DNA of 45,745 nt, from positions 1-45,745 of the forward strand of contig JAUXGN010000020.1 of the NCBI GenBank assembly GCA_030622115.1, written 5' to 3'. The stretch is from Candidatus Eiseniibacteriota bacterium. Lineage in GTDB: Bacteria > Joyebacterota > Joyebacteria > Joyebacterales > Joyebacteraceae. Made by a program: the position numbers and the translations under genes. The notes beneath the pieces are model-generated. The model had not been told where the DNA came from, ran no database searches, and worked only from the letters and a program-made list of their open reading frames with translations. Below, in pieces: positions 8,278 through 38,064 of the stretch (its first letter is position 1; every line of letters begins with the position of its first letter).

Positions 8278-8329
8278 GTGGGGCGCCGACGGACGTTGCG
8301 CCTGGACCGATTCCCCAGGAGGGATTGGA

Positions 8330-14787: not shown

Positions 14788-14802
14788 AGAACGGGAGAGA
14801 AG

Positions 14803-15882
14803 ATGAGGCTTTGCTTCCTGGCCGACGCCGGGTCCGCGAACACTCAGGTGTGGGTCAACTACTTCGCGGAATCGCTGGGCCACGATGTCCATATTGTGTC
14901 ACTCAGCCGTGGTCGAGGTCTCAGCCCGGCTGTGACACTCCACCAGTTCGGGGAGACGCGGGACACGCGTTCCTTGCGCTCAAAGCTGGGCTATCTCGCG
15001 CAGACAGGCAGGATTCGCGATCTGGTGCGTGAGATATCGCCCGACATCGTTGTGGGATATCGCGTCGCGAGCTACGGATACGTCGGCGCCCGCACGGGCT
15101 TTCATCCTCTGGCCGTCGTGGCACAGGGGCAGAGGATCGTCTATCCCGCGCGTTCACTGGCCAAGATGCGCTCTGTGAAGATCGCGCTCAAGACCGCGGA
15201 TATCATCAATTCGTGGGCCCCGCACATGACGGACCGTCTTGTGGAATTGGGGGCCGATCCGGAGAAGATCCTGACATGTCCGCGAGGTATCGATCTTGAG
15301 AAATTCACCCGGCCGAGCGAGAGCGCAACGACGGAGTTCACGGTCGTCTCGACTCGTGGACTGAACAAACACTACGGAGCAGACATCATCATCCGCGCGT
15401 CTCGCCTTGCAGCGGAGAGCCTGGGCACCGTTCCCACTGCCATCGCAGGGAGCGGGGAAGCGGAGTCGGCATTGAAAGAGCTGGCCAAGGACCTGGGCGC
15501 CGCGGCGGATGTGTGGTTTGCGGGGGAGATCCCCAACGATGAGTTGCCCGGTCTGCTTGGCCGGAGCGACGTGTACGTGTCGGCGGTCCGCACCGATGGT
15601 GTCTCGGCCTCTCTTCTTGAAGCCATGGCCTGTGGTTGTTTCCCCATCGTGACCGACAACACCGCAAACCGGCTCTGGGTGGAGGACGGGGTCAATGGAT
15701 TCCTGATCGCCGCCCCCGATCCTCAAGCGTTCGCCGCGGCCATAGTGCGGGCGATGGACGATCCAACCCTCAGGCAGCGTGCAAGGAATGAGAACCTCAG
15801 AATCGTTCAAGAACGGGCAGACATGAGTGTCAACATGCGCACGATATCCGACGCGTACCAGGATCTGGTTGTCTCAGGCTGA
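14803..15882 (+). CDS. GT4 family glycosyltransferase
   Basis: This 359-residue protein has a GT-B fold. The N-terminus is MRLCFLADAGSANTQVWVNYF, and the donor half contains VVSTRGLNKHYGADIIIRA, FAGEIPNDELPGLLGRSDVYVSA and the EX7E-like region around SASLLEAMACGCFPIVTDN. The ATG at 14803 follows GGGAGAGAAG. It would add one sugar to the lipid-linked repeat on the cytosolic face. Donor and acceptor are not predictable. The stop overlaps the next open frame by one base, but the next gene probably starts at 15894. Confidence 0.9.
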   Translation: MRLCFLADAGSANTQVWVNYFAESLGHDVHIVSLSRGRGLSPAVTLHQFGETRDTRSLRSKLGYLAQTGRIRDLVREISPDIVVGYRVASYGYVGARTGFHPLAVVAQGQRIVYPARSLAKMRSVKIALKTADIINSWAPHMTDRLVELGADPEKILTCPRGIDLEKFTRPSESATTEFTVVSTRGLNKHYGADIIIRASRLAAESLGTVPTAIAGSGEAESALKELAKDLGAAADVWFAGEIPNDELPGLLGRSDVYVSAVRTDGVSASLLEAMACGCFPIVTDNTANRLWVEDGVNGFLIAAPDPQAFAAAIVRAMDDPTLRQRARNENLRIVQERADMSVNMRTISDAYQDLVVSG

Positions 15883-15893
15883 TGGAGAGAACG

Positions 15894-17327: not shown

Positions 17328-17383
17328 GCAGGTGGTCCCCGAGAAGGGGTTCTGAGTACCGACCGGGGTTGGGGGTCGATCTG

Positions 17384-19720
17384 ATGGCGAAACGCGTGTT
17401 GCATGTAATCCGCTCCCTGGAGGCCGGGGGAGCAGAGCGCGTCGTTGTGGAGTACGCGCTCCACCACGATGTGTCTCGGTATTCTCCGGAGGTCTGTTGT
17501 CTCGATACAGACGGCAGGCTTGCGGGGACGCTTCGCGACGCCGGTATTCCGGTACACACGCTTCGCCGGGGAAGACGAGTCGACATCGGTGTTCTCGTTC
17601 AGCTTGTGAAGCTCATCTCCAAACGCAGATTCGATGTCGTGCATAGCCACGGTTCAGGAGCCATGGCTTTCGCCGTGCCTGCGGCCGTGATCACGGGGAC
17701 ACCGGTGATCGTGAGAACAGAGCACAATGTTGTCTATGGCAAATCCTGGCAGCGGCGACTTCTGCGGCGCCTTGCGGCCTTGAGAGAGGACGCACAGATC
17801 GCCGTGTCCGAAGCTGTGCGGTTGTCGCACATACGTGACAGAGGGACGCCGGCCGCGCGCTTTGTGACGGTCCGAAACGGCATCGCGTCTGAGCGCCTGG
17901 ACGTACACTCCGGTCGAGACGACGTGAGTGATTCACTCGGCATCTCGAGGAACGCGCTCGTGGCGCTGTCCGTGGGGAGTCTTACCGAACAGAAGGACTA
18001 CAAGAATCTGATCGAGGCAGCGGCCATGGTCGTGGCGCGGTTTCCGGATATCGTGTTCCTCATAGCAGGTGGCGGGGGGCTCGAAGACGATCTCGTGAGC
18101 GCCGCTTCCGCTCTGGGCGTGGGAGATCAGGTCCGATTTCTCGGAGAGCGCGACGATGTACCCCTGCTGCTCCGACGCGCGGATATCATGGTGAACTCGT
18201 CGGCGTGGGAGGGCCTTCCGATAACGATTCTGGAGGCGATGGCGGCCGGCGTTCCAACAGTAGCGACGGATGTCGGTGGAACTGCGGAGGTCATCGCCGG
18301 TGACGACTGCGGACTTGTCGTGCCCTCAAGGGACCCCGAGTCCCTCGCGGCGGCGATCCTGAAGCTGGCGGAGAGCCCTGAGCTTCGTGAGCAGCTCTCC
18401 TCTCGGGCTCGCGAGATCTACCTGCGAAGGTATACGGCGGAGAGGATGATCCGGGAGACAGAAGCTCTCTACGACGTTTGCCGTCAGCGCTCTGCCCACC
18501 TTGTCGTATCAGGACGGGTCAGGATCCTCTACATGATCGGTGGTCTCGCGAGAGGAGGAGCGGAGCGTCAGCTGACTGAGTTGGTTACGCGAGTGGACCT
18601 CGAGCGGTTCGAACCGGTTGTCTGCTCACTTGCGCCACTTGGTGCGCTTGCGGAGTTGATAGAGAGGGCAGGGGTCCGTGTCCTGTCGCTTGAGAAGCGC
18701 CCGGGAGTCAGTCTAGTGGCACTCTTGCGCCTCGTCCGCCTCATCCGCGAGTTGCGCCCCGCCGTACTTCACACGTACCTTCCCCCAGCGAACTGGAGAG
18801 GACTCGTCGCAGGACGTGCCACCGCGGTGCCGCTCATCGTATCCTCCGTCAGAAACGTCGATTTCCACCTTGGTTTCGTGACGGCGACGCGCGACAGAAT
18901 GCTGGCCGTACTGGTTGACGTGATGGTAGCGAACGCGGAAGCCGTTCGCGACTACGTCGTGAACGCCCACTGGGTCGCGCGCGCGCGGATGCGCGTCATC
19001 TACAATGGTATCTGCATTGACAGACTGTACAGGGGAGGGTCGGACCTCCCGAGTAGCTCCGGCAACGCACACAGCGGCGGAACCGTTGTCATTGTGGCCA
19101 GTCTGACACCGAAGAAGGACCACGAGACCTTCCTGGCATCAGCCCGTTTGGTGGTGGACGCCCTGCCGGACACGCGCTTCGTCATAGTCGGCGACGGGGG
19201 GCTGAAGGAGCACCTCGTCAATCGCACGGCCGAACTGGGACTGAAGGACTGCGTGGCCTTCATAGGAGAGACGGCCGCTGTCGGGCTGCACCTGTCTGAG
19301 GCCGATGTGTCGGTCCTGACCTCGCGCAGAGAGGGGTGCTCGAATGTGATCCTGGAGTCGATGGCGCTCGCCCGGCCCGTCGTCGCGACGGACGTTGGGG
19401 GAAATCGAGAACTCGTCGATGACGGTGTTACAGGATTCCTCGTGGATGTGGGAGATGTCGAAGGCCTGGCCTGCAGAGTAGTAGATCTGCTTGCCGACCC
19501 ACCACTCAGACGGAGGATGGGGAAGGCTGGTCGCGAGCGTGTTCTCGATAGGTTTGTGGTTGAGCGGATGATAGCGGACACGGTCGCGCTCTATGAAGAG
19601 AAACTCGATGCGCGCGTGCCCGGGCTGATGGATTGGACGCGCACTCGGAAGGCCAGATACGGCTCCGAGCCGATCGCAGAGCACAAGCGCGAATCGGATT
19701 TGGAGGGGGCGCGAACATGA
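17384..19720 (+). CDS. Tandem GT4-GT4 glycosyltransferase fusion
   Basis: One uninterrupted 778-residue frame holds two full GT4 enzymes. The first (about 1-370) opens with VLHVIRSLEAGGAERVVVEY and has EGLPITILEAMAAGVPTVATDVGG. The second (about 378-750) opens with ILYMIGGLARGGAERQLTEL and has EGCSNVILESMALARPVVATDVGG. Both keep the phosphate-binding region and the EX7E-type donor site, so both look active. It would add two sugars in order, or one enzyme could have drifted. The start is ATG 17384; the frame is open upstream but the family N-terminus begins here. It overlaps the deacetylase gene by 4 bp. Confidence 0.9.
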   Translation: MAKRVLHVIRSLEAGGAERVVVEYALHHDVSRYSPEVCCLDTDGRLAGTLRDAGIPVHTLRRGRRVDIGVLVQLVKLISKRRFDVVHSHGSGAMAFAVPAAVITGTPVIVRTEHNVVYGKSWQRRLLRRLAALREDAQIAVSEAVRLSHIRDRGTPAARFVTVRNGIASERLDVHSGRDDVSDSLGISRNALVALSVGSLTEQKDYKNLIEAAAMVVARFPDIVFLIAGGGGLEDDLVSAASALGVGDQVRFLGERDDVPLLLRRADIMVNSSAWEGLPITILEAMAAGVPTVATDVGGTAEVIAGDDCGLVVPSRDPESLAAAILKLAESPELREQLSSRAREIYLRRYTAERMIRETEALYDVCRQRSAHLVVSGRVRILYMIGGLARGGAERQLTELVTRVDLERFEPVVCSLAPLGALAELIERAGVRVLSLEKRPGVSLVALLRLVRLIRELRPAVLHTYLPPANWRGLVAGRATAVPLIVSSVRNVDFHLGFVTATRDRMLAVLVDVMVANAEAVRDYVVNAHWVARARMRVIYNGICIDRLYRGGSDLPSSSGNAHSGGTVVIVASLTPKKDHETFLASARLVVDALPDTRFVIVGDGGLKEHLVNRTAELGLKDCVAFIGETAAVGLHLSEADVSVLTSRREGCSNVILESMALARPVVATDVGGNRELVDDGVTGFLVDVGDVEGLACRVVDLLADPPLRRRMGKAGRERVLDRFVVERMIADTVALYEEKLDARVPGLMDWTRTRKARYGSEPIAEHKRESDLEGART

Positions 19721-20847
19721 CAGCGCGGAGCATAGGAATGCGGGTATTGCCGCGAGCGTGTCGGGACGCGGCGCGAGGAGTTCGCGATTCGTCGATGGTC
19801 GTCCGCCTGCTGAGTGCCGTGCCGGCCCGCGGGTGCGCAATCCTGCGCTACCATTCCATCAACGACGACCGAGGCTGGGTGGGCGACTACCTTCGCGCAA
19901 GTATCGTCGTCACTCCGGCATCGTTCGAGGAACACGTGCGGTATCTGCGCAGGCACTTCGAGATCGTTCCGATAGGACGGATCATCGAGCTCCTCGCGAA
20001 CGGACAGACACCCGATCACCGGTGGGTGGCGCTGACATTCGACGACGGATACGAGGACAACTATCGGGTCGCGCTTCCGATCCTGCGTAAGCATGGCGCC
20101 ACAGCTGCTTTCTACATTACGACGGCGTGCGTCAGCGATGAGACCATCCTCTGGGGTGTGCGGCTCAGGCATGCGATCAGGAACACGGAGCGGACAAGCC
20201 TTGCCTGTCCATCGCTCGGACACCATCCCGTTGACCTCTCAACAGAGGAATCCCGAGACCGAGCTACGCACTGGATCACCGGGCTTGTGAAATCCCGCAG
20301 GAAGACCGAGGCCGACGAGCTTCTTGATGAGGTCTTCGATGAATGCGGTGTACCGGTTGGGCGGATCAGTCACAGGATTATGATGAGCTGGGATGAGATC
20401 CGGGAAATGAGGGACGCCGGGATGACGATAGGCGCTCACACGGTGAACCACTACAACCTCACGTGTCTGGATGACAGTGATGTCACCGCCGAGGTCAAGG
20501 TTTCGAAGGAAGCGATCGAGGCGGCGCTCGGTGAGCGTGTGGATCATTTCGCCTATCCGAACGGGAGAACCGACAAGCACTGTGATGCTCGGGTGGCGGG
20601 AATCGTGGCGAAGGCAGGCTTCAAGTCGGCAGTGACATCAATCAATGGGCCGGCGGGGAGCAGGTTCTCGCCATACGGGGTTCCTCGCGTCGGCGTGGCG
20701 ACCCGCCGCACCGGAATCGCGAGGTTCGCGGCCGATCTGCAGTACACGAGACTCAAGAAGGTCGTGTCGTCCTCGATAGCCGAGATCGGCGCCTCAGGAC
20801 ACGGCGCGGGCCGGGCCGGAAGGCGCGGCAGCACGGAGTGCAGGTAG
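19717..20847 (+). CDS. Polysaccharide deacetylase (CE4/NodB)
   Basis: This protein (376 residues, ATG 19717, with GGAGGGGG upstream) has a NodB homology domain. Motif 1 is TFDDGYEDN with Asp109-Asp110, and motif 2 is HTVNH with His241 and His245, giving the usual Asp-His-His metal site. Motif 3 is FAYPNGR at about residue 278. There is no signal peptide and the N-terminus is basic, so it may act in the cytosol or at the inner membrane face. CE4 deacetylases of this kind recur in exosortase-linked EPS loci. It would remove N- or O-acetyl groups from the glycan, changing its charge. Confidence 0.9.
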   Translation: MTARSIGMRVLPRACRDAARGVRDSSMVVRLLSAVPARGCAILRYHSINDDRGWVGDYLRASIVVTPASFEEHVRYLRRHFEIVPIGRIIELLANGQTPDHRWVALTFDDGYEDNYRVALPILRKHGATAAFYITTACVSDETILWGVRLRHAIRNTERTSLACPSLGHHPVDLSTEESRDRATHWITGLVKSRRKTEADELLDEVFDECGVPVGRISHRIMMSWDEIREMRDAGMTIGAHTVNHYNLTCLDDSDVTAEVKVSKEAIEAALGERVDHFAYPNGRTDKHCDARVAGIVAKAGFKSAVTSINGPAGSRFSPYGVPRVGVATRRTGIARFAADLQYTRLKKVVSSSIAEIGASGHGAGRAGRRGSTECR

Positions 20848-20851
20848 AGTG

Positions 20852-22081
20852 ATGCAAACCAAAACGCAGAGCCGAGCGCGAGTTCAGGAGCGACCGCCGA
20901 TCAAGGTGGCCTTCTGGGCGGGATCCTTTGAGCGCGCAGGCACGCAGCAGTTCCTTCTGGAACTACTGAAGAGAATCGACCGCGCGCGCTTCGATCCCAT
21001 TGTGATGTCGACACTCAGAACGGGGGAGCTTATCTCCGATATCGAGTCGCTGGGCATCGAGGTCATCGAGTTCGGTACCGGCAGAACGCTCATGAGCCCG
21101 GCTACGATCTGTGGTTTCTTCCGGGCCGCACGGTTTCTCAGGCGCGAGCGCGTCGCGGTACTCAATTGCATGCTGGGCCTGGTTACGCTCATCGGACCCT
21201 TTGTGGGGCGCGCGGCAGGTGTCCCGGTCGTCCTGAACAACCAACGCAACCTGAGCTACTGGATGCACGGGAGATCTCGGGAGGCGGTCTACAGATTCGT
21301 CAACAGGAGGCTCGTGGATGCCGTACTCGTGAACTCCGCGGCCGCCGAGACCGAGCTCCTGGATCGGTTCGGGGTTCCGGCCGGCAAGGTTGTGTCGGTG
21401 GGCACAGGAATAGATCTCAGGCGTATTGCGGAGGCCCGCGTGGGAGACGAACTCGCAAAGGATCTTGGGCTCTCCGGCAGAACCGTCGTGGGAATTGTGG
21501 CCAAGCTCAGTCCTGTGAAAGGGCACGAGTACTTCCTCAGAGCCGCGGCCGGAATCGCGAAAGCGAGAGATGACGTCGCCTTCCTTGTTGTCGGTGATGG
21601 CCCGAGGAGGGAGACGCTCACGCAGATGGCAAAGGAACTCGGAATAGAGGACGCGGTCGTCTTCGCCGGTGCGCGAGATGACGTGCCGTCACTCCTTAAG
21701 CTGATGGACGTGTTTGTCCTGAGTTCGCTTTCGGAGGGCTCGCCGAATGCAGTTCTCGAAGCGATGGCGGCCGGTCTCCCGGTGGTCGCCACCGACGTCG
21801 GCGGTCTCCCCGACATGGTCATCGACGGCGAGAGCGGGATCCTCGTGGCGCCCGGTGATTCAGAGGCGCTTGGGTCAGCCATCAGTGAGCTTCTGGGAGA
21901 CCCGGAGCGCGCGGAGGCTATGGGGCGCATGGGTCTGACCCTGGCAACCGACAAGCATGATATCGAAAAGGTCGTTCAGAAGGTGGAAGGAATCATGGAT
22001 CGCTTGCTCGATTCTTCCCGTGGACGAATGTCCGGAAAGCGAAGGCGGTCCGCATCCGAAGACCTCAGGTTGGAGCAGTGA
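20852..22081 (+). CDS. GT4 family glycosyltransferase
   Basis: This 409-residue GT-B protein has an N-terminal FWAGSFERAGTQQFLLELL. The donor half contains GIVAKLSPVKGHEYFLRAAA, VVGDGPRRETL, LSSLSEGSPNAVLEAMAAG (EX7E) and PVVATDVGGLPDMV. It resembles the sugar-transferase/PEP-CTERM-associated GT4 group often found near exosortases, though I cannot separate subfamilies by eye. The start may be the ATG at 20852 or the GTG at 20849; neither has a strong ribosome site. The next gene starts within a few bases of the stop, so translational coupling is likely. Confidence 0.9.
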   Translation: MQTKTQSRARVQERPPIKVAFWAGSFERAGTQQFLLELLKRIDRARFDPIVMSTLRTGELISDIESLGIEVIEFGTGRTLMSPATICGFFRAARFLRRERVAVLNCMLGLVTLIGPFVGRAAGVPVVLNNQRNLSYWMHGRSREAVYRFVNRRLVDAVLVNSAAAETELLDRFGVPAGKVVSVGTGIDLRRIAEARVGDELAKDLGLSGRTVVGIVAKLSPVKGHEYFLRAAAGIAKARDDVAFLVVGDGPRRETLTQMAKELGIEDAVVFAGARDDVPSLLKLMDVFVLSSLSEGSPNAVLEAMAAGLPVVATDVGGLPDMVIDGESGILVAPGDSEALGSAISELLGDPERAEAMGRMGLTLATDKHDIEKVVQKVEGIMDRLLDSSRGRMSGKRRRSASEDLRLEQ

Positions 22082-22083
22082 AG

Positions 22084-23895
22084 ATGAGGGTCCTTTTCTT
22101 CACGCAGTACTATCCTCCCGAGACGGGAGCGGCGCCGCTTCGGGCCTATCACTTCGCCAGGGAATTGGTGAGGAAAGGCCACGACGTCGTTGTCGTGACG
22201 GGCATGCCCAATCACCCGAGCGGGATCAAGCATCCGGCCTATCGGCGGCGCATGGCGGCCCGGGAGCAACATGATGGGGTTCAGGTGCGTCGCTGCTTCC
22301 TCTGCGCAAGCCCGAAGAAGACGTTCGCTAAACGGATCCTGAACCAACTGTCGTTCATGGTGACGTCCTTCTTCGGCAGCCTGACGGTGCGCCGTCCGGA
22401 CATCGTTCTCATCACCTCTCCGCCGCTCTTTCTTGGTGTTACCGCGTGGCTCATCGCGCTCTGGAAGGGCATTCCGTTCGTGCTCGATGTGCGGGACTAC
22501 TGGCCACACGCCGCCGTTGCTCTGGGGCAGCTCAGTGACAAGCGCATAATCAAGTGGGCCGAGCGATTGGAGATGTTCCTCTATCGTCACGCCAGCATGA
22601 TCCTGGCGGTCACGCCGGGGATGGTCCGCCTGATGAAGGAACGCGGCATTCCTGAACGCAGGATCGTACTCATCACGAACGGTGCGGACACGGATGCCTT
22701 CGTTCCGAAGGAGAGTAGTGGCGGAAGCGACAGTGACAACGGGTGCACGACTGTTCTCTACAGCGGCACGCACGGACTGGTGCACGGCATGGATGTGATC
22801 ATCGAGGCGGCCGACATTGTGAGGGACGATCCACACCTCCGTTTTCTCCTGGTCGGTGATGGAGTTGCCAAGGATGGGCTCGTGTCCGACGCGCAGAAGA
22901 GAGGTCTCACGAATATCGAATTCCGTCCCAGTGTCACGCCGGCGGAACTCGTGACCATCATCCATGGCGCTGGAGTGTGCATTGCGACCACTGACGGGTC
23001 CGAGTTCAGTCGTGGGACCATCCCGGTCAAGATATTTGACTGCATGGCCTGCAGCAGGCCGATCGTTGCCGTACTCGAAGGTGACGGAGCGGAGCTCGTC
23101 AGGCGATCGGGCGGCGGCATCGTCGTGGCTCCGGGTGACGCCGATGGTCTGGCAGAGACGCTTCGCAGCCTCGCCGGCGACAGGGAACGGCGGGAGAAGC
23201 TCGGGAGAACGGGCTGCGAGTACGTAGTGAGAGAGTACTCGCGCAGAATACTAGCAGGGAGGATGGAGGAACTCCTTGGCAAGATCGCAGCAGCAGAGCG
23301 ATCGATAAGGGGCAGGCATCTTCCGCTCAGGCGATACCTTGCCATCAAGTACACGATCGATTTCATGGGCGCCGCCGTGCTGCTCGTACTCGGCGCACCT
23401 ATCTTTCTCACGGCGGCGATCATTATCAGGCTGGATTCTCGCGGGCGATCCGTGTTCACGCAGCGGAGGATCGGGGTTCATTCGCACGAATTCACGATCT
23501 ACAAGTTCCGGACGATGAGGGAGGAGACGCCTGACCTTGCCACGGACCTCCTGGCGCACGAGGACGCGGACTACACGACGCGGGTCGGTCGCTTCCTGAG
23601 GAAGACAGGCGCGGACGAGCTTCCGAATCTGGTCAATATCCTGAGAGGGGAGATGAGCATCGTCGGGCCACGGCCCGCGCTCTACAACCAGTACGAGCTG
23701 ATAGATCTCAGAAGTCAGATACTGGGAGATCTGGTCAGGCCCGGTCTCACGGGTTGGGCGCAGATCAACGGGCGGGACGCGATCTCACTCGATGAGAAGG
23801 TGAGACTCGACGCATTCTACGTGAGGAACTGCTCGTTCCTCCTGGATCTCAGGATCTGCCTCAGGACACTGTTCGTTGTGGCCGACACACGCTAG
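22084..23895 (+). CDS. GT4 fused to a phosphoglycosyl transferase (WcaJ/PglC type)
   Basis: This protein (603 residues from ATG 22084, GGAG 8 bases upstream) has two enzymes. Residues 1-400 are a WbuB-like GT4 (FTQYYPPETGAAPLRAYHFA, VTGMPNHPSG, VLDVRDYWPHAA). From about residue 415 a monotopic bacterial sugar transferase begins: a re-entrant hydrophobic segment, then KFRTM (474-478), the catalytic DELPNL (Asp511-Glu512), SIVGPRP and PGLTGWAQING. The second half would start each repeat by moving a sugar-1-phosphate to undecaprenyl phosphate; the first half could add the second sugar. GTG 22078 is an alternative start that overlaps the previous stop. Confidence 0.92.
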   Translation: MRVLFFTQYYPPETGAAPLRAYHFARELVRKGHDVVVVTGMPNHPSGIKHPAYRRRMAAREQHDGVQVRRCFLCASPKKTFAKRILNQLSFMVTSFFGSLTVRRPDIVLITSPPLFLGVTAWLIALWKGIPFVLDVRDYWPHAAVALGQLSDKRIIKWAERLEMFLYRHASMILAVTPGMVRLMKERGIPERRIVLITNGADTDAFVPKESSGGSDSDNGCTTVLYSGTHGLVHGMDVIIEAADIVRDDPHLRFLLVGDGVAKDGLVSDAQKRGLTNIEFRPSVTPAELVTIIHGAGVCIATTDGSEFSRGTIPVKIFDCMACSRPIVAVLEGDGAELVRRSGGGIVVAPGDADGLAETLRSLAGDRERREKLGRTGCEYVVREYSRRILAGRMEELLGKIAAAERSIRGRHLPLRRYLAIKYTIDFMGAAVLLVLGAPIFLTAAIIIRLDSRGRSVFTQRRIGVHSHEFTIYKFRTMREETPDLATDLLAHEDADYTTRVGRFLRKTGADELPNLVNILRGEMSIVGPRPALYNQYELIDLRSQILGDLVRPGLTGWAQINGRDAISLDEKVRLDAFYVRNCSFLLDLRICLRTLFVVADTR

Positions 23896-23956
23896 AGGCC
23901 GTCGCCTGAGATGGCAACGTGAGGAACGAGTGGGCATTCGAAGGAGAGGGTGCGAG

Positions 23957-24877
23957 TTGGAGCAGAAACGGGAATCGACAGGGAGCAGGACCTGGATATT
24001 GGGAGTCGGCACGGCAGTGGCCGTAACGCTTCTGACGGTGTTTGTCTATCGCGGTACGTTCGCAACGCTTTGGAGAACCTGGGCGACTAATCCGAACTAC
24101 TCACACGGTTATCTCATTCCGCCCGTTGTAGCGTTTCTCCTCTGGAGAGACCGCGATCGTTTCTTGGACAGGCGATCGTCGTCCTCTGGTCTGGGCATAT
24201 TCCTCGTGGCGTTTGCCCTCTTGGGTCATATTGTATCGTTGAGGGCCGGTGTCTTCATGACGCAAGGCTACTCGTTCGTTCTTCTGCTCTTCGGGCTGTC
24301 TCTTATCTTCTTCGGAGGCAGGGCGACGCGGACCGTGTGGTTCCCGCTCACGTATCTGGTCTTCATGCTCCCCATGCCTCCCTATCTGATGAACGTAGCC
24401 AGCTTCAGACTGAAACTCGTGGCGGCGCACGTCGGGAGCGCGATCGCGATCAAGTTGGGCATACCGCTCGCCCGCTCGGGCATGACCATACACATTCCAT
24501 CCGGATCCTTGCGGATAGCCGATCCATGCAGCGGCTTACGGTCGCTCATCGCGCTTGTTGCACTGGGGGCACTGTTCGCGTGGTTCACGAATGCCCGCCC
24601 GTGGAAGAGAATCGTGCTCTTCCTGTCGGCGATTCCGCTCGCCGTCCTTGGAAACACGGTGCGGATCGCCATCCTTTGCGCAGTGGCCAACGTATGGGGG
24701 GTCGACGCGGCGCTCGGGTTCTTTCACGATTTCTCGGGCTTCCTGCTGTTTGCGATCGCACTCGGTGGTCTTTTCGTCGTCCGGAAGCTTCTCCGGTGTG
24801 AAGGAGACGATGGCGGTGAATCCGGGGATTCCGCCGCCGATGACGGTGATTCTGCGCGAGAGGGGGTGGCGAGATGA
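23957..24877 (+). CDS. Exosortase (PEP-CTERM processing transpeptidase)
   Basis: This polytopic protein has about eight helices. It carries the exosortase triad: Cys191 in DPCSGLRSL, Arg236 in GNTVRIAIL and His257 in FFHDFSGF (numbered from TTG 23957). NPNYSHGYLIPP near the N-terminus is also typical. It would cut PEP-CTERM proteins after they cross the inner membrane and probably transfer them to an envelope acceptor. TTG 23957 is preferred because AAGGAG lies 10 bases upstream; GTG 23930 (GAGGA, spacing 4) is possible. EpsI is a separate downstream protein (ATGA overlap) rather than a fused domain as in classical XrtA. Two likely substrates lie at 37255 and 38233. Confidence 0.93.
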   Translation: MEQKRESTGSRTWILGVGTAVAVTLLTVFVYRGTFATLWRTWATNPNYSHGYLIPPVVAFLLWRDRDRFLDRRSSSSGLGIFLVAFALLGHIVSLRAGVFMTQGYSFVLLLFGLSLIFFGGRATRTVWFPLTYLVFMLPMPPYLMNVASFRLKLVAAHVGSAIAIKLGIPLARSGMTIHIPSGSLRIADPCSGLRSLIALVALGALFAWFTNARPWKRIVLFLSAIPLAVLGNTVRIAILCAVANVWGVDAALGFFHDFSGFLLFAIALGGLFVVRKLLRCEGDDGGESGDSAADDGDSAREGVAR

Positions 24878-25506
24878 AGATGCGAACGTCAGCGGTTCTC
24901 GTGATCATTATGCTCGCCGCCACGGGCGTCTACACGTTCATGAACGCCCCGGCGAACCTCGTTCTCGGCACGGATACGCTGTCTACGTTTCCTCGGGAGT
25001 TCGGTGAATGGACCAGTCAGGATCTGGAATTCTCAGATGTTGTCTACGATGAACTTGCGGCAGACGACACGCTGGTTCGTGAGTACAGGAGGGCGGAGGA
25101 GAGCCCCGTCTGGTTTGTCATCATCTACCACGAGAACAAGCGATACGGCGCTCACGATCCTATGGTCTGCTACCGCGCTCAGGGCTGGGATATCAGAAGC
25201 GAGGGAACGATCGGGATCGCGCGCGGATCGGGGGGCTTCGATGCGAACTGGGCTCTCGTCTCGGATGACGACCACGACCGCCTGACCTTCTACTGGTGGT
25301 ACACGGCGGGGGATCTCGCAACGGGTGACAGAGACAGTTTCATGGCCAGGATGGCGGCATCGGGCATCCGGTCGAACATCACGTTCGGGGCGTTCATGCG
25401 CGTTTCCACGGACGTCCGTGATGGAGATGTCGAGGCGGCGCGAACGAGGCTCCGAGAGTTCTCGGAGGACGCTCTGCCACATGTGGCGGCCATCCTCTCC
25501 TCCTGA
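24874..25506 (+). CDS. epsI: EpsI family exosortase-associated protein
   Basis: This 210-residue protein has one N-terminal membrane anchor (residues about 5-24), so the body lies in the periplasm. It shows the EpsI pattern: FPREFGEWTSQDLEF early on, then YGAHDPMVCYRAQGWDI (equivalent to the H-x-P-x-x-C...GW signature) and TFYWWYTAG. EpsI is found fused to, or next to, exosortases and is required for EPS formation in some species; its exact reaction is not settled. Its overlap with the exosortase gene suggests equal expression of the two. Confidence 0.9.
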   Translation: MKMRTSAVLVIIMLAATGVYTFMNAPANLVLGTDTLSTFPREFGEWTSQDLEFSDVVYDELAADDTLVREYRRAEESPVWFVIIYHENKRYGAHDPMVCYRAQGWDIRSEGTIGIARGSGGFDANWALVSDDDHDRLTFYWWYTAGDLATGDRDSFMARMAASGIRSNITFGAFMRVSTDVRDGDVEAARTRLREFSEDALPHVAAILSS

Positions 25507-25548: not shown

Positions 25549-26442
25549 ATGTCCCCTCCAGTGAAGGGAGTCTTGATGGATATCGTTCAACAGTTCAATG
25601 CGCTTATCTGGAGTTGGGCGGAGACGCTGAGAGCGCTCAGGCGTCGTGTCGGCGTTCGTCCGCTCCTCATCTATGCGTCGGTGCAGCTGGTCGTGCTCGT
25701 GATGCTGGCATTGTTTGCTTACCCGCCGTTCGTGTCATTTGTCATGCCGCTTATTCGCTGGCGACTTGGTGAGGCTGCGCTGCACTACCCCGGGAGCTTC
25801 CTCGCTTTGAGAGCGATCTTCGGACAGGTGGACATGGTGCTGACAGTTGTCCTCGGTGGGTTTGTCACCGGGGCGGCCGTGTGGTCGTTCTCCTCCTACT
25901 ACGGGGGAGGAGAGGATCCACCGGCTGCCGGGTTCCGGGCGGCGGCAAGGCGCTATATTCCCGTCCTCATAATCGCTCTTGTCGGTCTCGTGGTCGCGCA
26001 GATCGTGACACGCGTTCCGATGGAACTCTGGGGGCACCTTGCTGACGAGCGGCCGATGCGATTCCGGCTTCTCAGGATGATGACGATCGGTGCGGTGATG
26101 GCAGTACAGGCGCTCCTCGTCTACGCGATTCCGTATGTCATTCTGGGGGGGAGGAGAGTCTGGTCCGCACTCGGGGCGAGCGTTTCCCTCGCCGTTCGCA
26201 ACCCTGTCACTACCTACCTAATAGTGGCTGTGCCGGCCGCTCTCGAGCTTCTGCCGGCGTGGTTGGCGCGCAACAGCACCGTCATCACGTACCGCTTTGC
26301 TCCTGAGGGCCTGGTGGTGATGCTCGCTGTCTGGGTTGCCGTGATCTTCTTCGTTACCTATCTGATGGTTGGCGCGGCCACGCGCTTCTACATCTACGCT
26401 ACACAAGACGACGCCGAGGTCGGCGACGCTGCGGAGGTCTGA
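25549..26442 (+). CDS. Polytopic membrane protein of unknown function
   Basis: I do not recognise this 297-residue protein. It has about six helices: roughly residues 38-68, 97-120, 145-163, 180-205, 223-240 and 258-285. A cytosolic-looking N-terminus carries VQQFNALIWSWAETLRALRR. The layout resembles integral-membrane regulatory or GDPD-type membrane domains, but no catalytic motif is visible. Two start codons have good ribosome sites: ATG 25549 (GGAGGGGAG) and ATG 25576 (GGGAG). It lies between epsI and a TPR lipoprotein, 3 bp before the latter, so it is a plausible accessory part of the exosortase or export system. Confidence 0.85.
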   Translation: MSPPVKGVLMDIVQQFNALIWSWAETLRALRRRVGVRPLLIYASVQLVVLVMLALFAYPPFVSFVMPLIRWRLGEAALHYPGSFLALRAIFGQVDMVLTVVLGGFVTGAAVWSFSSYYGGGEDPPAAGFRAAARRYIPVLIIALVGLVVAQIVTRVPMELWGHLADERPMRFRLLRMMTIGAVMAVQALLVYAIPYVILGGRRVWSALGASVSLAVRNPVTTYLIVAVPAALELLPAWLARNSTVITYRFAPEGLVVMLAVWVAVIFFVTYLMVGAATRFYIYATQDDAEVGDAAEV

Positions 26443-26445: not shown

Positions 26446-27978
26446 ATGATTGTTCCTTCAAGAGAATCCGCACTTCGCGGCGCCTTGCTCTTCGGGCTTC
26501 TTGTGCTCCTTCTCCCGATGTTGACGGGCTGTGGAAATGAAGAGTTCACGGCCAGGTACCGCGCTGAGAAGATGCTCTGGAGTGCGACCAAGCTACAGCA
26601 GGCGATCTCCGAGAACCCCGAGCTTGCTACCGAGGAGATGAGAGCCCTGATCGCAGAGAAGTACGAGCTGATAGTCACGGAATTCCCTCCGCCGGAGGGA
26701 GCCAGTGAGTCAGACCTGTCGATGGATGCCCTCGTAACCGCATCCATCTCGGGTCGCAGCAGGATCGTTCTGGCCGGGCTCATGGCGGCAGAGAACAGGC
26801 GCGAAGAATCGGCAGAACTCCTGGCTTCAGTGCGGGATGAATACACGGCCGTGAGGCCCTTGGCTGTTGAAGCAGCGCTCTCGCTGGCGTCGCTTCAAGA
26901 GGCCTCCGGCGATTGGGAGGCGGCCGTGGCCGAGTTCGATCTGCTTGTGGAATGCTGGCCGCCCGCATACGAGGACGGTTCTGGGCCCGACACTCGCATA
27001 TTGAGGGCTCCAATGCGCAAGGCGACCGGCTACGTGCTCAGGGGTCAGGAGTCGTTGGCGGCGGGCGCTTTTGATGAGGCTCGCTCGTACTGGCGCCACT
27101 GGGAGAAAGAGTGGCCCGGGAGCAGCACGGCGCTCAGTGCCGCGAGTCTTGTGGCGGAGAGCTTTTCGGTCGAGCAGAGATGGAGCGACGCGGTCGACGC
27201 ATACAAGGAGCTCGACGCCGTCTACGGCGACGAGAGTAACAGGGCGGCGCTCTGGCTGACGCTGGCCGACATATACAAAGAGAGACTTGGCAAGATCGCT
27301 GAAGCGCGGGTCTACTATGAGAAGGTGTCAGTGACCTACGGCGGCGAAATCGCCGGTGTGACGGCGGACGTGGCGCTTGCGGTGGATGATATCAGAAGGG
27401 AGAGCTACTCGCGGGCACGGGAGCGGCTCGAGTCAGTCATTGTCGAATTCGGCGACGAAGAGGCGGTGGCCGCGACGGCAACCTATCACATTGCCAGGAG
27501 TTTCGAGCTGGAAGGACGCTGGGACGAAGCGATACCGCACTATCGCACTCTCTCATCGCGCTACCCGTCAACCATGTATGGCCTGACCGCTCCTCTGCAT
27601 GTCGCCGGTCACCTCACGGAGATGGGAGAGGCTGCAGCGGCTGCAACGGCGCTCTCCGGCGCCGCGGATGCGTACGAGCGTGTCATGCGAGACTTCATCG
27701 GCACTCCGGCCGAGCTCGTTGCCCGGAACAACCTCGTTGAGACGAGATTGCGCCAGGGACTCTGGAGACAGGCCGCGGAAGTCCTCGTGGAGAGCGCGGA
27801 CCGCTTCGGCGACACGAGCGCAACGGCGGCAATGCTGCTCCAAGCCGCTGATCTCTACTCGGAGAAGCTTGGTGATGATGATTCAGCAAGGAGTCTCCTG
27901 GAATCCGTGGTCCATCTCTATCCGGGAGAAGCCGGTGGAGATGCCGCTCAGCAGAGACTCGACAACTTAGGTGGCTGA
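26446..27978 (+). CDS. TPR-repeat lipoprotein
   Basis: This 510-residue protein has a type II signal ending in LTGC (lipidated Cys29). The body is helical, with many TPR-like units, for example DWEAAVAEFDLLVECWP, GAFDEARSYWRHWEKEWPGS, RWSDAVDAYKELDAVYG, KIAEARVYYEKVSVTYGG and RWDEAIPHYRTLSSRYPS. This pattern also resembles YfgC/BamD-like scaffolds. Known exosortase loci often carry a large TPR protein (PrsT); this one differs in being a lipoprotein and shorter. It probably scaffolds a periplasmic or outer-membrane complex for glycan or substrate export. GGAGG at 26433 supports ATG 26446. Confidence 0.88.
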   Translation: MIVPSRESALRGALLFGLLVLLLPMLTGCGNEEFTARYRAEKMLWSATKLQQAISENPELATEEMRALIAEKYELIVTEFPPPEGASESDLSMDALVTASISGRSRIVLAGLMAAENRREESAELLASVRDEYTAVRPLAVEAALSLASLQEASGDWEAAVAEFDLLVECWPPAYEDGSGPDTRILRAPMRKATGYVLRGQESLAAGAFDEARSYWRHWEKEWPGSSTALSAASLVAESFSVEQRWSDAVDAYKELDAVYGDESNRAALWLTLADIYKERLGKIAEARVYYEKVSVTYGGEIAGVTADVALAVDDIRRESYSRARERLESVIVEFGDEEAVAATATYHIARSFELEGRWDEAIPHYRTLSSRYPSTMYGLTAPLHVAGHLTEMGEAAAAATALSGAADAYERVMRDFIGTPAELVARNNLVETRLRQGLWRQAAEVLVESADRFGDTSATAAMLLQAADLYSEKLGDDDSARSLLESVVHLYPGEAGGDAAQQRLDNLGG

Positions 27979-27983: not shown

Positions 27984-30104
27984 ATGAGTGCAAGTGCGGC
28001 ATTGATGATGACAGCGACGGTATTCACTTTCGGATTCGGAGTGGCTGTCTTGCTTCGCGCGAGACACAGGGTGGACAGGCTATCGCTCGGCGTCGGTGCC
28101 GTGGTCCTGGCGTTCTGGCTCTTCGCTGTCGGGTCGATCGCCGTGAGCCGCGATCCAGGTGTCGCCGGCGGTCGCATAGCCGCCGCGGCCGCGCTGAGTG
28201 CGCTTCTGCCGATCCCGTGGACGCTCGTGACGATCGTCTTCGCCCGCGAGAGCCGCCCTGCGATGCTGCGCCGGTGGCGCTTCTATCTGATAGGGCTTTC
28301 CCTTGCGGGGTTGTTCTTCGCCGCGCATGCCCTCTCTCTGGGGGCGGTTCGCGCAATCGGTCGGGACGTCGGTGACTATGTCTTGTACCTGGGGGTCATG
28401 GGGCGGGCGATGAGCCTGTATCTGATCACCTCGATCGTCGTGATGCTCTTCAACATCGAGACAACCGTGCGATGTGCGCGTGGTGTGGAGCTCAGACAAG
28501 TCAAGTTTGCACTGATAGGTATGGTAGCCGTGCTGGTCTACCACCTCTTTGTTCTGTCTCTTGCCGCCATCTACTCCGCGGTCAGCGTTCAGCATCTCGT
28601 GGCGGGATCCGTTCCGATTCTCGCCGCCGGCGCACTGATCGCATACTCGATTGTGCGCCGCCGTCTCGATGATACCCGCGTGCGTGTCGGACGTCCCGTC
28701 TTCTACGGTTCGGTCACCGCGTTCATCGCGGGCGCGTATCTCATGACACTGGGGGTTGTGGCCCTGGTTGCCCGGGGTCGTGGGTGGGGTGTCTCCTCGC
28801 TCACCGTCACATCGCTCATCTTCCTGGGGTTGCTTCTTCTCGCGATGTTCTTCGCGTCGTCACGCGTGAGGAAGGGGATCAGGAGGTTTATCGACAACAA
28901 CTTCTACGTGAGCAGATACGACTACAGGAGGGAATGGGAGAGAACGTCGGAGGCCCTTTCCGGCGCAACGAGCGAGCGCGAGGTGCTTGCGGCAGCCGTC
29001 GAGGTCATCATGGATGCGCTGGATGTGTCTGCCGTTGTCGCGGCCGGCGTGGACAGGTCGATTCACCCGGCAGCAGTCCGCGTCGCCGGTGACACGGGGA
29101 CGAGATACGCCGCGGCCATAAGCGACCCCGGACTTCTGGAACTGCTTTCCGAACGTCTGGAGGCTGTGAGAGTGGGAACGGAGGACTCGGATCCGGCGCT
29201 CTACGAATGGACTGCCCGACACTCGGCTTCGCTGTCTGCACCTTCGCCGGATCTGGCCGTGCCGCTTGTTGCAGCCCGTGACGTGGTTGGAGTTGCGCTT
29301 GTTTCACTGGGTTCCGCCCGCCGTACGCACGAGGATCTGGAGATTCTGTCTACGCTCGGGCGTCAAGCGGGAAGCGCTCTTTTGGCAGCCAGGCTCTCTG
29401 ATCGGCTTGCGGAGACCCGGGGCCTCGAATCGGTTCACAGGATGTCGTCGTTCGTGATCCACGATCTCAAGAATTGCATCTCCGGTCTGTCACTGACTCT
29501 CGCGAATGCGAGGACGGAGCTGGATGACCCATCCTTCCGAGCGCACCTCATGACCGCGCTTGAGGAATCCGTGTCGGCGATGGAGCGCGTTATCGAGAGA
29601 GTGGCCGGCGTATCCGGAGAGCAGACGCCCCTGCCTGAAACGATCGAACTCGGGAGTCTTGTCGAACGGGCGCTTGCGCGCACGGGAGTGGCTCAACCTG
29701 GATCGGCCACGGAGTCCGCGGTCGACCTCGAAGGAATTGTTGAGGCCGACGCTGACCTCGAGCAACTCCTCACGGTTCTTGAGAACCTCATTAAGAACTC
29801 CGTCGAAGCCATGAACGGCGCCGGGCGGATCGAAGTGACCGGGCGGGACACGGGCAACGGGTCGGTGGTGCTTTCTATCGGCGATACGGGTCCGGGTGTC
29901 GATCCTGAGATGGCGATGGATGATGTGCTCTTCGCGGCCTTCAGGACCACGAAGCCGGACGGTCTAGGCATCGGGCTCTACCAGAGCAGGCGGATAATGG
30001 AGGCTATGGGAGGCAGTATCGCGCTCGTGGATGGCAAAGAAGGGGCTCTGTTCGAGCTCAAGATTCCGTCGGCGACTTCGCGCTCCAGGAGGAAGCATAC
30101 GTGA
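27984..30104 (+). CDS. prsK: PrsK-like membrane sensor histidine kinase
   Basis: This 706-residue protein has about eight N-terminal helices (residues about 5-290), then a GAF-like domain (about 330-475) and a kinase core. The phospho-acceptor is His493 in FVIHDLKN. The N box is ENLIKNSVEAM, G1 is GDTGPGVDPEM and G2 is DGLGIGLYQSRRIMEAMGG. The order and the HDLKN motif match PrsK of exosortase systems. It would phosphorylate the PrsR-like protein encoded directly after it (GTGA overlap). The signal sensed is unknown; the polytopic N-terminus suggests an envelope cue. Confidence 0.9.
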   Translation: MSASAALMMTATVFTFGFGVAVLLRARHRVDRLSLGVGAVVLAFWLFAVGSIAVSRDPGVAGGRIAAAAALSALLPIPWTLVTIVFARESRPAMLRRWRFYLIGLSLAGLFFAAHALSLGAVRAIGRDVGDYVLYLGVMGRAMSLYLITSIVVMLFNIETTVRCARGVELRQVKFALIGMVAVLVYHLFVLSLAAIYSAVSVQHLVAGSVPILAAGALIAYSIVRRRLDDTRVRVGRPVFYGSVTAFIAGAYLMTLGVVALVARGRGWGVSSLTVTSLIFLGLLLLAMFFASSRVRKGIRRFIDNNFYVSRYDYRREWERTSEALSGATSEREVLAAAVEVIMDALDVSAVVAAGVDRSIHPAAVRVAGDTGTRYAAAISDPGLLELLSERLEAVRVGTEDSDPALYEWTARHSASLSAPSPDLAVPLVAARDVVGVALVSLGSARRTHEDLEILSTLGRQAGSALLAARLSDRLAETRGLESVHRMSSFVIHDLKNCISGLSLTLANARTELDDPSFRAHLMTALEESVSAMERVIERVAGVSGEQTPLPETIELGSLVERALARTGVAQPGSATESAVDLEGIVEADADLEQLLTVLENLIKNSVEAMNGAGRIEVTGRDTGNGSVVLSIGDTGPGVDPEMAMDDVLFAAFRTTKPDGLGIGLYQSRRIMEAMGGSIALVDGKEGALFELKIPSATSRSRRKHT

Positions 30105-31480
30105 AAGATCTGGCGGGCGGCGTGCCGGAAGCCAAGCGGATTCTCATTGTGGACGACGACCGGGTGATCCGCGAGCAGCTGGCGTGGGCCTTCTCCGACG
30201 ACCACGACGTATACACGGAGGCTACGCTCGAGAGCGCTCTCTGTGCTGCCCGCAGCATTCGCCCGCATCTGGTGATGCTCGATCTCTCGCTGACGGGGAG
30301 ACCGGGCGAGACGGAAGAAGGGTTCGAACTTCTGAGGAGCTTGATCGAGGGTGATCCCGCCGTGAAGGTCATCATGATAACCGGAAGCGACGATCGCGAA
30401 CGGGCGGTCAGAGCCATCGATCTGGGAGCCTTCGACTACTACGTGAAGCCACTGGATCTTGATGTGCTGCGCGTACTTGTCGGGCGTGCTCTCTACGTCC
30501 AGGAGCTTGAGAGGACCGCCCGCAGCATTGAGGAGAACGCGGGCGAGCCGGATCGATTGGGCGGGCTCATCGGGTCCGGTGATGCGATGAAACGCGCGCT
30601 TGAGCTTGCGAAAGCCGCGGCTTCTACAGCCGCGCCGGTTGTCATCGTCGGGGAGAGCGGCACAGGTAGGCGTAGATTCGCGGAGACCATACACAGAAAG
30701 AGCGATCGCGCATCGCAGCCATTCGTCACGGTCGCCGGTGGAGCCCTTCCTGAGGAAGCCCTGGAGCGCGAGATCTTCGGCGGGGTCAGAGACGGGACCA
30801 GCGAGCCAGGACGGCTGGAGCAGGCGGCCGGAGGAACGCTCTTCCTGAGAGACCTCGGCAGATACGCCTTGCCGCTCGTGAATCGACTTAGGGATTATGT
30901 GGCCAACGGAGTCTTCAGCCGAATCGACGGTGGCGAAGCCGTGCGACCGGATGTGCGCATCATGGCCTCAGTAGAGCCTCCTGCGGATGCCGATCGGGCG
31001 GCCTCGGGGTACGGATTCATCGGAGCACACGTCATCGAGATTCCTCCTCTGAGCGAGAGGGGAAAGGACGTCCTCCTGCTCGCCGATGAGTTTCTCGGCC
31101 GTCTCTCCGGGTTGCACGGGCATCACTCGCGCGGCTTCGGAAACGTGGCCGTGCGCGCATTGCTTGGTCACGGCTGGCCCGGCAATGTGACTGAGCTTGA
31201 AAATCGAGTTCGGAGAGCTGTTCTGTCCGGCGGGCGTGGAGCGATAGTGGCCTCCGATCTCGGGTTGGCCGGTGAGAATGAGGGAGGGGAGCAGACCCTG
31301 AGTGCCGCCAGGCACGAGCTCGAGCGCGGCATGGTGGCTGCGGCGCTCAGGAAGAGCGCGGGGAATGTGAGTCGGGCCGCCAGATCGATCGGGGTCAGCC
31401 GCCCGACGATGTACGACCTTATAAGGAAGCACGGTCTCAAACCGGCGGACTACAAGGCCCGCAACGGCGCGGCCGATTAA
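30101..31480 (+). CDS. PrsR-like response regulator with degenerate sigma54-type AAA+ domain
   Basis: This 459-residue protein has a receiver (Asp18-Asp20, phospho-Asp61, Thr94, Lys116), an NtrC-type AAA+ domain (about 155-390) and a Fis-like HTH (NVSRAARSIGVSRPTMYDLIRK). The receiver and HTH look intact. The AAA+ core does not: Walker A reads GESGTGR with Arg190 replacing the lysine. The GAFTGA sigma54-contact loop is absent; FGGVRDGTSEPGRLEQ occupies that region. Walker B reads GGTLFLRDLG (Arg250-Asp251) where GGTLFLDEIG is usual. The arginine-finger stretch is also altered. Start GTG 30101 has AGGAGG upstream. It is homologous to PrsR but is unlikely to activate sigma54 in the usual way. 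Confidence 0.9.
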   Translation: MKDLAGGVPEAKRILIVDDDRVIREQLAWAFSDDHDVYTEATLESALCAARSIRPHLVMLDLSLTGRPGETEEGFELLRSLIEGDPAVKVIMITGSDDRERAVRAIDLGAFDYYVKPLDLDVLRVLVGRALYVQELERTARSIEENAGEPDRLGGLIGSGDAMKRALELAKAAASTAAPVVIVGESGTGRRRFAETIHRKSDRASQPFVTVAGGALPEEALEREIFGGVRDGTSEPGRLEQAAGGTLFLRDLGRYALPLVNRLRDYVANGVFSRIDGGEAVRPDVRIMASVEPPADADRAASGYGFIGAHVIEIPPLSERGKDVLLLADEFLGRLSGLHGHHSRGFGNVAVRALLGHGWPGNVTELENRVRRAVLSGGRGAIVASDLGLAGENEGGEQTLSAARHELERGMVAAALRKSAGNVSRAARSIGVSRPTMYDLIRKHGLKPADYKARNGAAD

Positions 31481-31641: not shown

Positions 31642-32388
31642 ATGAGGGGTATAGCGACAGTCCTTCTGTTCTTGGTGTCGGCGGCGCTCGTCCCGGTCGC
31701 GGGGACCGCGTGGGCAGAGACGGGGGCAGGTGTTGTGATCACGTCAGAGCCCCCGGGTGCGATCGTCGAGCTCAGTGGCGACCATGTGTTGCGCGGCGTG
31801 ACGCCCTGGCGCCTCGACAGAGGGCTCGAGGGCATCTACGATATCAACGCGTTCAAGTTTGGCTACGCTGACTGGCATGGGCGCACGGTGCTGTCGGCGA
31901 CAAGTCGGGATTCGATCTTTGTCAGACTCACCCGCAGGACGCCCGTGGCAGCAGCTCTCCGGTCAACCATAGCGCCTGGCTGGGGGCAGTTCTACTCGGA
32001 GCAGAATGTGAAGGGGACGGTATTCGTAGCGGTAGAGGCGTTGGTTCTCGGCGCCGCCCTGTGGGCGGATGCGGAGAGTAACCGGGAGGAGTCGGACTAC
32101 CTCAAGGCCAAGCGTGCGTATGAGGATGCTACTGAGGTGGATGAGATGGAGCGCGCCTATGAGGTGATGCTCAGGGAATTCGATGAATACGAGGATAAGC
32201 ATCTCCTGAGGAGGCGCTTCATATGCGCGGCCGCGGCTGTTTGGGTGGCGAACATCGCCGATGCGTTCTTCCTGTTCCCGGAGCCGGGTGGCGGGGCCTA
32301 CGCAGAGGAGCCGGGTCTGTCAAGGCCGGGGCTCTACGCCACGCTTGAGCCGGATGGGGCCACATTCGGCTTGGCTGTCCACTTCTAG
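31642..32388 (+). CDS. Secreted PEGA-domain protein with DUF5683-like C-terminus
   Basis: This 248-residue protein has a signal peptide of about 25 residues (ending AWAE). A PEGA-like module follows: VVITSEPPGAIVELSGDHVLRGVTPWRLDRGLEGIYDI, the pattern of a small surface beta-domain. The C-terminal half has APGWGQFYSEQNVKG, a DUF5683-type motif, and two hydrophobic segments (about 128-142 and 192-210), so it may sit in the outer or inner membrane. No enzymatic function is known for these domains. GAGGAG upstream supports the ATG at 31642. Such proteins are common in FCB-type lineages. Confidence 0.8.
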   Translation: MRGIATVLLFLVSAALVPVAGTAWAETGAGVVITSEPPGAIVELSGDHVLRGVTPWRLDRGLEGIYDINAFKFGYADWHGRTVLSATSRDSIFVRLTRRTPVAAALRSTIAPGWGQFYSEQNVKGTVFVAVEALVLGAALWADAESNREESDYLKAKRAYEDATEVDEMERAYEVMLREFDEYEDKHLLRRRFICAAAAVWVANIADAFFLFPEPGGGAYAEEPGLSRPGLYATLEPDGATFGLAVHF

Positions 32389-37152: not shown

Positions 37153-37254
37153 ATGCGTGGCAGATGTAGTTGTACGCTCATGACAGCATAGAACACCTGT
37201 GGCGCGAGCATCCAAGTGATGGTCGCGCGCAGTAGGTACGTGAGGAGGAACAAC

Positions 37255-38064
37255 ATGAAGCTGCTGGGAATCACCCTCTCGGTGATCGCGATGCTGGGTC
37301 TGATGGTGTCCGTGGCCGGGGCCGTGTATGTCTCCGAACTCCTCTTCGTCGGCTCCGGGACTTACGAGCACGATGTGAATCCCAATGACCCGCTCGGCTA
37401 CGGCGACTACGGGCTCTTCGCCGCCAACTACAATCTGGATGTCCGCGTTCCGGATGAGATCTGCAATTGGTATCTCGACCCAACCTTCAGTTTCGATTTT
37501 GTGGGGACGAAGTCGGCGGGGCGGGCCACCCATCATATCGGAATGGGCGAGAACGGCATCGAGCTTGACAGTGATCTCATTCCGTGGGCCGCCATGGGGC
37601 ACAGTTGGGAGGAAGGCAAGGGGATCCACCTCGGGCTGGGGGATGCGTCGGCATTGGTGGGGTTTGATCCGGACGTGCTCGTAGGCGATTACGCTTGGGA
37701 TCTCGACGGCGGCGGCGATGATCTTGCACTGAGCATACAGCCCTCGTCGAGTGCCATGCTGGCGTATTCGGTGCGGATGAGAATGTACAGGTCGTTCTCG
37801 TGGCTGTCGGGCGAGCCGGTGACCGACTGGATGGCTGCCTGGATGTTGCCTTTCGTGGGGGGCGTTGCCATGGACGGCCTGGACCACGGTCTCAGGAAGA
37901 TAGCGACGAGGCTGGGTGAGTGGGACACTGAGAGCTATGCTATCAACTACAGTGGGCGGATGAGGGTCACCGGCTGCGACGAAGCACCTGTTCCAGAACC
38001 CATGACACTGCTTTTGTTCGGCGGGGGCCTCCTGGGGGCGGCACTTCTACGAAGACGCCGGTAG
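37255..38064 (+). CDS. PEP-CTERM sorting-signal protein 1
   Basis: This 269-residue secreted protein has a signal peptide of about 22 residues (ending VAGA). The last 24 residues form a textbook PEP-CTERM tripartite signal: VPEP, then a hydrophobic helix MTLLLFGGGLLGAALL, then RRRR. The body is beta-rich and acidic and unknown to me. The start is ATG 37255 with GAGGAGGAA upstream; the open frame continues to 37216 without support. It is a likely substrate of the exosortase encoded at 23957. There is only one cysteine near the signal, and it lacks the Ser/Thr-rich stretch some PEP-CTERM proteins have. Confidence 0.9.
   Translation: MKLLGITLSVIAMLGLMVSVAGAVYVSELLFVGSGTYEHDVNPNDPLGYGDYGLFAANYNLDVRVPDEICNWYLDPTFSFDFVGTKSAGRATHHIGMGENGIELDSDLIPWAAMGHSWEEGKGIHLGLGDASALVGFDPDVLVGDYAWDLDGGGDDLALSIQPSSSAMLAYSVRMRMYRSFSWLSGEPVTDWMAAWMLPFVGGVAMDGLDHGLRKIATRLGEWDTESYAINYSGRMRVTGCDEAPVPEPMTLLLFGGGLLGAALLRRRR

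Follow-up and report, generated by a model that had tools for sequence, protein, structure and literature searches.

A PrsR regulator without its ATPase motor, and its predicted sigma70-type role at an exosortase operon of Candidatus Eiseniibacteriota

In this study, we analyzed a 45,745-bp stretch of DNA (the whole of which is called the window below; contig JAUXGN010000020.1, assembly GCA_030622115.1, Candidatus Eiseniibacteriota bacterium) and a gene in it that encodes a homolog of PrsR, the regulator of PEP-CTERM/exosortase systems known as a sigma54 activator. This protein and its orthologues throughout the phylum have lost the motifs of the ATPase motor. From protein motifs and promoter sequences, we consider it probable that PrsR works here as an ATP-independent, sigma70-type (class I) activator of the exopolysaccharide (EPS)/exosortase operon in which it is encoded. 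For the wider evolutionary scenario the balance is even: the phylum may have turned a sigma54-dependent two-component system for PEP-CTERM genes into a sigma70 class I activator of the EPS/exosortase operon, with the motor lost and the DNA box moved from enhancer distance to a fixed position at -61, after which kinase, receiver switch, and regulator would have been shed in different genera whose intermediates are still living. What is new is the full loss of catalytic residues in a PrsR lineage, the phylum-wide intermediates, and a matched shift of the DNA site.

The regulator is encoded in tandem with its putative kinase within the exosortase/EPS locus:

27,984-30,104, plus strand: PrsK sensor histidine kinase, GAF and HATPase_c domains (TIGR02916, 311.8 bits, passing the cut-off of 300)
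30,101-31,480, plus strand: motorless PrsR, with a receiver (residues 12-126), an AAA+ fold without motor motifs, and a Fis helix-turn-helix (HTH; residues 421-443)

The prsR open reading frame encodes 459 residues and begins with GTG; its start overlaps the prsK stop codon as GTGA, a 4-bp overlap that suggests translational coupling. Pfam recognized the receiver, the AAA lid, and the Fis HTH, and it gave Sigma54_activat a weak score of 90 bits. The switch residues of the receiver are complete (D18-D19-D20, phospho-acceptor D61, T94, and K116), and the HTH is intact. Walker A reads G184-ESGTG-R190-R191, with Lys replaced by Arg at position 190, and Walker B reads TLFL-R250-D251-L, so that the Asp-Glu pair is gone. 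The GAFTGA loop is absent (residues 224-237 read EIFGG-VRDG-TSEPG), and the arginine-finger segment FREDLYYRL has become ADRAASGYGF at residues 297-306. By sequence, the protein has no sigma54-interacting ATPase core; the AAA+ fold is nevertheless retained in its predicted structure (pLDDT 83; TM 0.85 to the NtrC1 AAA domain 1ny6). The top NCBIfam family is TIGR02915 (PrsR), for which the protein scores 348.9 bits against a cut-off of 502.6; of the relatives tested, those that reached the reporting threshold score 300-407, and intact outgroups 545-770. It is a PrsR by descent that stands outside the PrsR equivalog by score and, as predicted, by mechanism. An initial reading of the window from its letters alone (the sequence-only reading) had described an intact receiver and Fis HTH, which is borne out residue by residue, as well as the altered Walker A, Walker B, loop, and arginine-finger stretches and the position directly behind a PrsK-like kinase in an exosortase operon, all of which were confirmed.

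To place these changes, the phylum was sampled by 20 genomes, mostly metagenome-assembled, and the whole analysis was computational. A PrsR orthologue is present in 15 of the 20. None of the 11 full-length phylum orthologues aligned has GAFTGA or the Asp-Glu pair of Walker B; this pair has been replaced genus by genus (RD, AN, SD, PG, VG, MG, HS, and EG), and the Walker A position holds either R or K. PrsR proteins of other phyla have intact motor motifs. Across 90 homologous activators, whose motifs were censused by alignment projection (one of them, L050, is a fragment not covering the motifs), loss of the Walker Lys and the Asp-Glu pair is confined to the phylum clade, and loss of the loop only (no GAFTGA) was observed in four further homologs outside the phylum PrsR clade. 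The phylum orthologues form a single clade (support 100/100), which groups with intact PrsR of other phyla, apart from other NtrC-family activators (support 100/99). Close relatives with intact motifs would have spoken against the sequence-only reading; none appeared, and its expectation that the protein works without ATP hydrolysis is supported by the phylum-wide loss of motor motifs.

Independent assemblies of the same genus agree with the window protein (75-89% identity). Within the genus, the ratio of nonsynonymous to synonymous substitution rates (dN/dS) is about 0.18-0.23 overall, with 0.16-0.17 for the receiver, 0.15-0.21 for the AAA+ domain, and 0.04-0.09 for the HTH; in each of three comparisons (g1; g3 with g7; g4), frames are open and dN/dS is low. 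These values indicate that phylum PrsR is under purifying selection, with the HTH as its most constrained part. An assembly error and a pseudogene are both ruled out by the cross-genome agreement and the low dN/dS.

A DNA site for PrsR was predicted by a box model trained only on intact-PrsR genomes of other phyla, from which the box TGTCGGAAAACTTTACA (TGTCGG-N5-TTTACA) was recovered. We scanned the 45.7-kb window and 108 kb of other DNA of the same genome. The two best matches in the window both lie in the 370-bp gap between an upstream gene (ending at 3,482) and the Wza-like gene that opens the EPS/exosortase operon (starting at 3,853); the next best match in the window has 11.9 bits, and the best in the other 108 kb has 15.5 bits. 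The elements of this gap are as follows:

3,496-3,511: sigma54-like site TGGCACATCAGATGCA, upstream of both boxes and just past the upstream gene
3,559-3,575, minus strand: PrsR box 2 (inverted), TGTCGAGAAGACTTACA, 15.4 bits, 100 bp upstream of box 1
3,659-3,675, plus strand: PrsR box 1, TGTCGACAAACCTTACA, 20.0 bits, ending 17 nt before the -35 element, its center at about -61 from the predicted start
3,693-3,721, plus strand: sigma70-like promoter TTGACT-N17-TAGCGT

The predicted target of PrsR is this promoter region (3,559-3,721), far outside the prsK-prsR segment (27,984-31,480). An alignment of 16 genomes contains three conserved blocks, namely TGGCAC...TGCA (3,496-3,511), the half-sites of the boxes, and GTTGAC (3,692-3,697). 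TTGAC is present in all 16 and is followed by 17 nt (18 in G014) and a -10-like hexamer starting with TA. In 14 of 14 genomes with data that carry PrsR, with or without PrsK, the box ends 16-17 nt upstream of the -35 element of this conserved TTGAC-N17-TA; two of the 14 (G003 and G004) have truncated contigs, and their PrsR is read from partial genes. In G009, where PrsR is lost, the promoter persists and the box is missing. Four genera have another, inverted box some 100-103 bp farther upstream. Among intact genomes, 0 of 19 boxes have TTGAC at a distance of 16-17 nt. A box centered at about -61, a value that assumes the predicted start near 3,728, sits where class I activators of the CRP type are known to bind. 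The sequence-only reading had left a sigma70-type regulator or repressor and a modulator of another activator side by side; the box at a class-I-like position before a sigma70-like EPS promoter favors the sigma70 branch.

The PEP-CTERM genes themselves have a different history. For PEP-CTERM genes of Proteobacteria, Haft et al. (PMC1569441) reported an upstream 17-nt motif that ends in TTTACA and precedes a sigma54 site by about 63 nt, and they inferred that PrsR binds it. For each PEP-CTERM gene we evaluated the highest-scoring sigma54 site in its upstream region (significance p<0.05); significant sites precede 20 of 30 genes in intact-PrsR genomes vs 2 of 31 in the phylum, the latter being the chance level. 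The sigma54 model can detect sites in the window's genome, in which TGGCAY-N5-TTGCW has 16 matches vs 3 for a reversed-pattern control, with no match in the window. The PrsR box precedes 14 of 28 PEP-CTERM genes in intact genomes at p<=0.01, a count that is partly circular because the same regions trained the box model; it lies upstream of the sigma54 promoter, mostly 40-140 bp from the sigma54 site. Phylum PEP-CTERM genes have no box at p<=0.01 and weak matches in 2 of 28 cases at p<0.05. Continued control of these genes by PrsR was rejected, since neither boxes nor sigma54 sites are found there. Such a promoter pattern, along with the box at the EPS promoter, supports the earlier idea of a rewired control circuit for PEP-CTERM systems.

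The other genes of the locus include the following:

3,853-4,818, plus strand: polysaccharide export (Wza-like) gene, opening the predicted operon; named by sequence recognition, with no family search
4,854-23,895, plus strand: EPS genes (chain-length/tyrosine-kinase-like, epimerase, glycosyl- and sugar-transferases, Wzy-like); named in the same way, with no family search
23,876-24,877, plus strand: exosortase (PF09721, 228.9 bits)
24,874-25,506, plus strand: EpsI/DUF3485
25,549-26,442, plus strand: membrane protein with no Pfam/NCBIfam match, a conserved member of the exosortase operon in this phylum (44-87% identity)
26,446-27,978, plus strand: tetratricopeptide repeat (TPR) lipoprotein, adjoining prsK/prsR; a synteny marker
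31,642-32,388, plus strand: PEGA/DUF5683 protein, the downstream synteny marker
37,216-38,064, plus strand: PEP-CTERM protein, its upstream region free of PrsR boxes and sigma54 sites

Gene order is kept across the phylum and runs sugar transferase, exosortase, EpsI, membrane protein, TPR, [PrsK], [PrsR], PEGA, FN3 proteins, with the bracketed pair being variable. In stage A, which covers three genera including the window's, PrsK is present and PrsR lacks its motor but has the receiver intact. In three others (stage B) there is no PrsK, and PrsR comes straight after TPR; residues of the receiver switch are altered in part or entirely (D18-D20 to EGD, ERD, or ERE, with T94 to A and K116 to R in several). 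Comparisons between species mostly give the stage B receiver a dN/dS of 0.3-0.5. In two further genera (stage C; G009 and G011), TPR is directly followed by PEGA, with neither PrsK nor PrsR. A search for a second PrsK elsewhere in the phylum genomes found none, by which its relocation is ruled out. In a tree of seven operon proteins, each stage C genus branches with a different PrsR-bearing genus (support 93 and 77), and PrsR was therefore probably lost twice. RpoN is present in all 20 phylum genomes, which rules out its loss as the cause of motor loss.

Some observations concern single members of this series. The orphan PrsR proteins L020, L021, L022, and L024 (g3/g7) have a C-terminal extension past the HTH with a conserved GDLDS/SDIDS-x-EG tail, which is not present in PrsK-bearing relatives. 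In G013 (genus g4, 98% complete), no exosortase, PEP-CTERM protein, or PrsR was found and sister species retain the system; the whole exosortase/PEP-CTERM/PrsR system appears to have been lost there.

With known PrsR, the window protein shares the receiver-AAA+-Fis layout, the PrsK tandem, the exosortase/EPS locus, and the DNA box; it differs in having no motor, in its score under the family cut-off, in the absence of sigma54 sites before the PEP-CTERM genes of its phylum, and in a box at a sigma70-like operon promoter. The missing GAFTGA is a feature that it has in common with sigma70-acting NtrC-family regulators of the VpsR and Rhodobacter capsulatus NtrC type. As cited in PMC10274813 and PMC3162934, VpsR of Vibrio cholerae is NtrC-like, lacks GAFTGA, and switches on EPS genes together with sigma70 polymerase; window PrsR may do likewise. 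The two are non-orthologous, however, and VpsR senses cyclic di-GMP, whereas the window receiver is paired with the kinase PrsK. In NtrC of Caulobacter and R. capsulatus, the loop is deleted, phosphorylation is still relevant, and promoters are of the sigma70 type; R. capsulatus NtrC requires ATP binding, and Caulobacter NtrC is predicted to use ATP (PMC10274813), whereas window PrsR has lost the Walker A Lys and the Walker B Asp-Glu pair. TyrR, DhaR, and HupR are further sigma54-activator homologs that have no GAFTGA and act with sigma70 (PMC3162934), although their sensory domains, targets, and extent of core loss are unlike those of window PrsR. By analogy, window PrsR most likely works like these proteins. 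A literature search for Eisenbacteria with PEP-CTERM found no papers.

In the mechanism that we propose, a sigma54 activator would have been stripped of its ATPase motor at the base of the phylum and kept its DNA-binding domain, with the phosphorylation switch retained in the window's genus. PrsK would phosphorylate the receiver, as its intact residues suggest, and the Fis domain would bind the ancestral box, as suggested by the conservation of both box and HTH. A PrsR dimer or higher oligomer could then sit on the two inverted boxes 100 bp apart before the EPS/exosortase operon; at the promoter-proximal box, centered near -61, sigma70 RNA polymerase would be recruited in class I style without ATP hydrolysis. 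PrsR would thereby control the operon that encodes exosortase, PrsK, and PrsR itself, and the PEP-CTERM substrate genes would have dropped out of both the PrsR and the sigma54 regulons. In genera without PrsK the receiver switch has decayed too, leaving an orphan PrsR that keeps the box, and in two genera PrsR is gone.

Several points weigh against this mechanism. We infer PrsR recognition of the box from correlation, and box loss together with PrsR loss is seen in a single genome (G009), in which the promoter is retained. G014, which may or may not carry PrsR (the assembly is 57% complete and broken by contig ends), shows a near-consensus box at 18-nt spacing. The -10 element TAGCGT is weak, and a consensus promoter scanner made no call at 3,693-3,721. 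ATP may still be bound without hydrolysis, given that Arg190, or Lys in some relatives, remains. In addition, TGGCAC and TGCA of the sigma54-like site are invariant in 16 of 16 genomes, also where PrsR is lost, and the EPS operon may have a second, RpoN-dependent promoter at 3,496-3,511 that is driven by another activator or acted on by PrsR.

This site is the starting point of the main rival, which we consider unlikely: it would be the real regulated promoter, driven by another, intact activator, and PrsR on the downstream boxes would block it, possibly by looping. Both boxes indeed lie downstream of the site, inverted and about 100 bp apart, so that a loop is feasible; rpoN is universal in the sample, and of the nine other high-scoring activators in the window's genome, eight retain both a GAFTGA-type loop and the Walker motifs intact. 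Repression of this kind leaves the constant 16-17 bp spacing between box and TTGAC-N17-TA unexplained, however, and the site survives in G009, where PrsR and box are gone. It is much less probable that PrsR has no promoter of its own and joins or poisons hexamers of another intact activator. The AAA+ fold is retained despite lost catalysis, and its residues are under purifying selection, which speaks for such a role; but the constraint on the HTH and the matching boxes at one promoter point to site-specific DNA binding, and the surfaces for ring contacts have been removed with the loop and the arginine-finger segment. Decay toward loss, under relaxed constraint and with no present function, is likewise very improbable: lineages have shed PrsK, receiver residues, and finally PrsR in steps, but frames are open with low dN/dS in three sets, the HTH is almost invariant, and the boxes are conserved. 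That the mostly metagenome-assembled genomes produced an assembly or sequencing artefact deserves practically no credence and is refuted by relatives, as independent assemblies agree, six genera on open frames and motif loss and eight on operon order.

Single switches from sigma54 to sigma70 are known (VpsR, some NtrC, and TyrR), but those cases do not reveal how one mode led to the other. Here, loss in trans (the motor), change in cis (box position), kinase loss, receiver decay, and regulator loss are spread over eight related genera and one syntenic operon, which makes the switch from an ATP-driven activator to an ordinary recruiter directly testable. A PrsR-like gene is also no safe ground for assuming that an exosortase system falls under RpoN.

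Motif loss and box arrangements were also seen elsewhere. On contig C35 of the window's genome, the sigma54-activator homolog L009 has no GAFTGA and keeps Walker A, Walker B, and the arginine-finger segment; judging from these motifs, it is a second, independent loop loss in this genome. The arrangement of box and sigma54 site before PEP-CTERM genes, reported by Haft in 2006 only in Proteobacteria, was observed outside them at L198, L206, and L220 (Omnitrophota, G122), L197-L223 (G061), and L201, L208, and L215 (G116).

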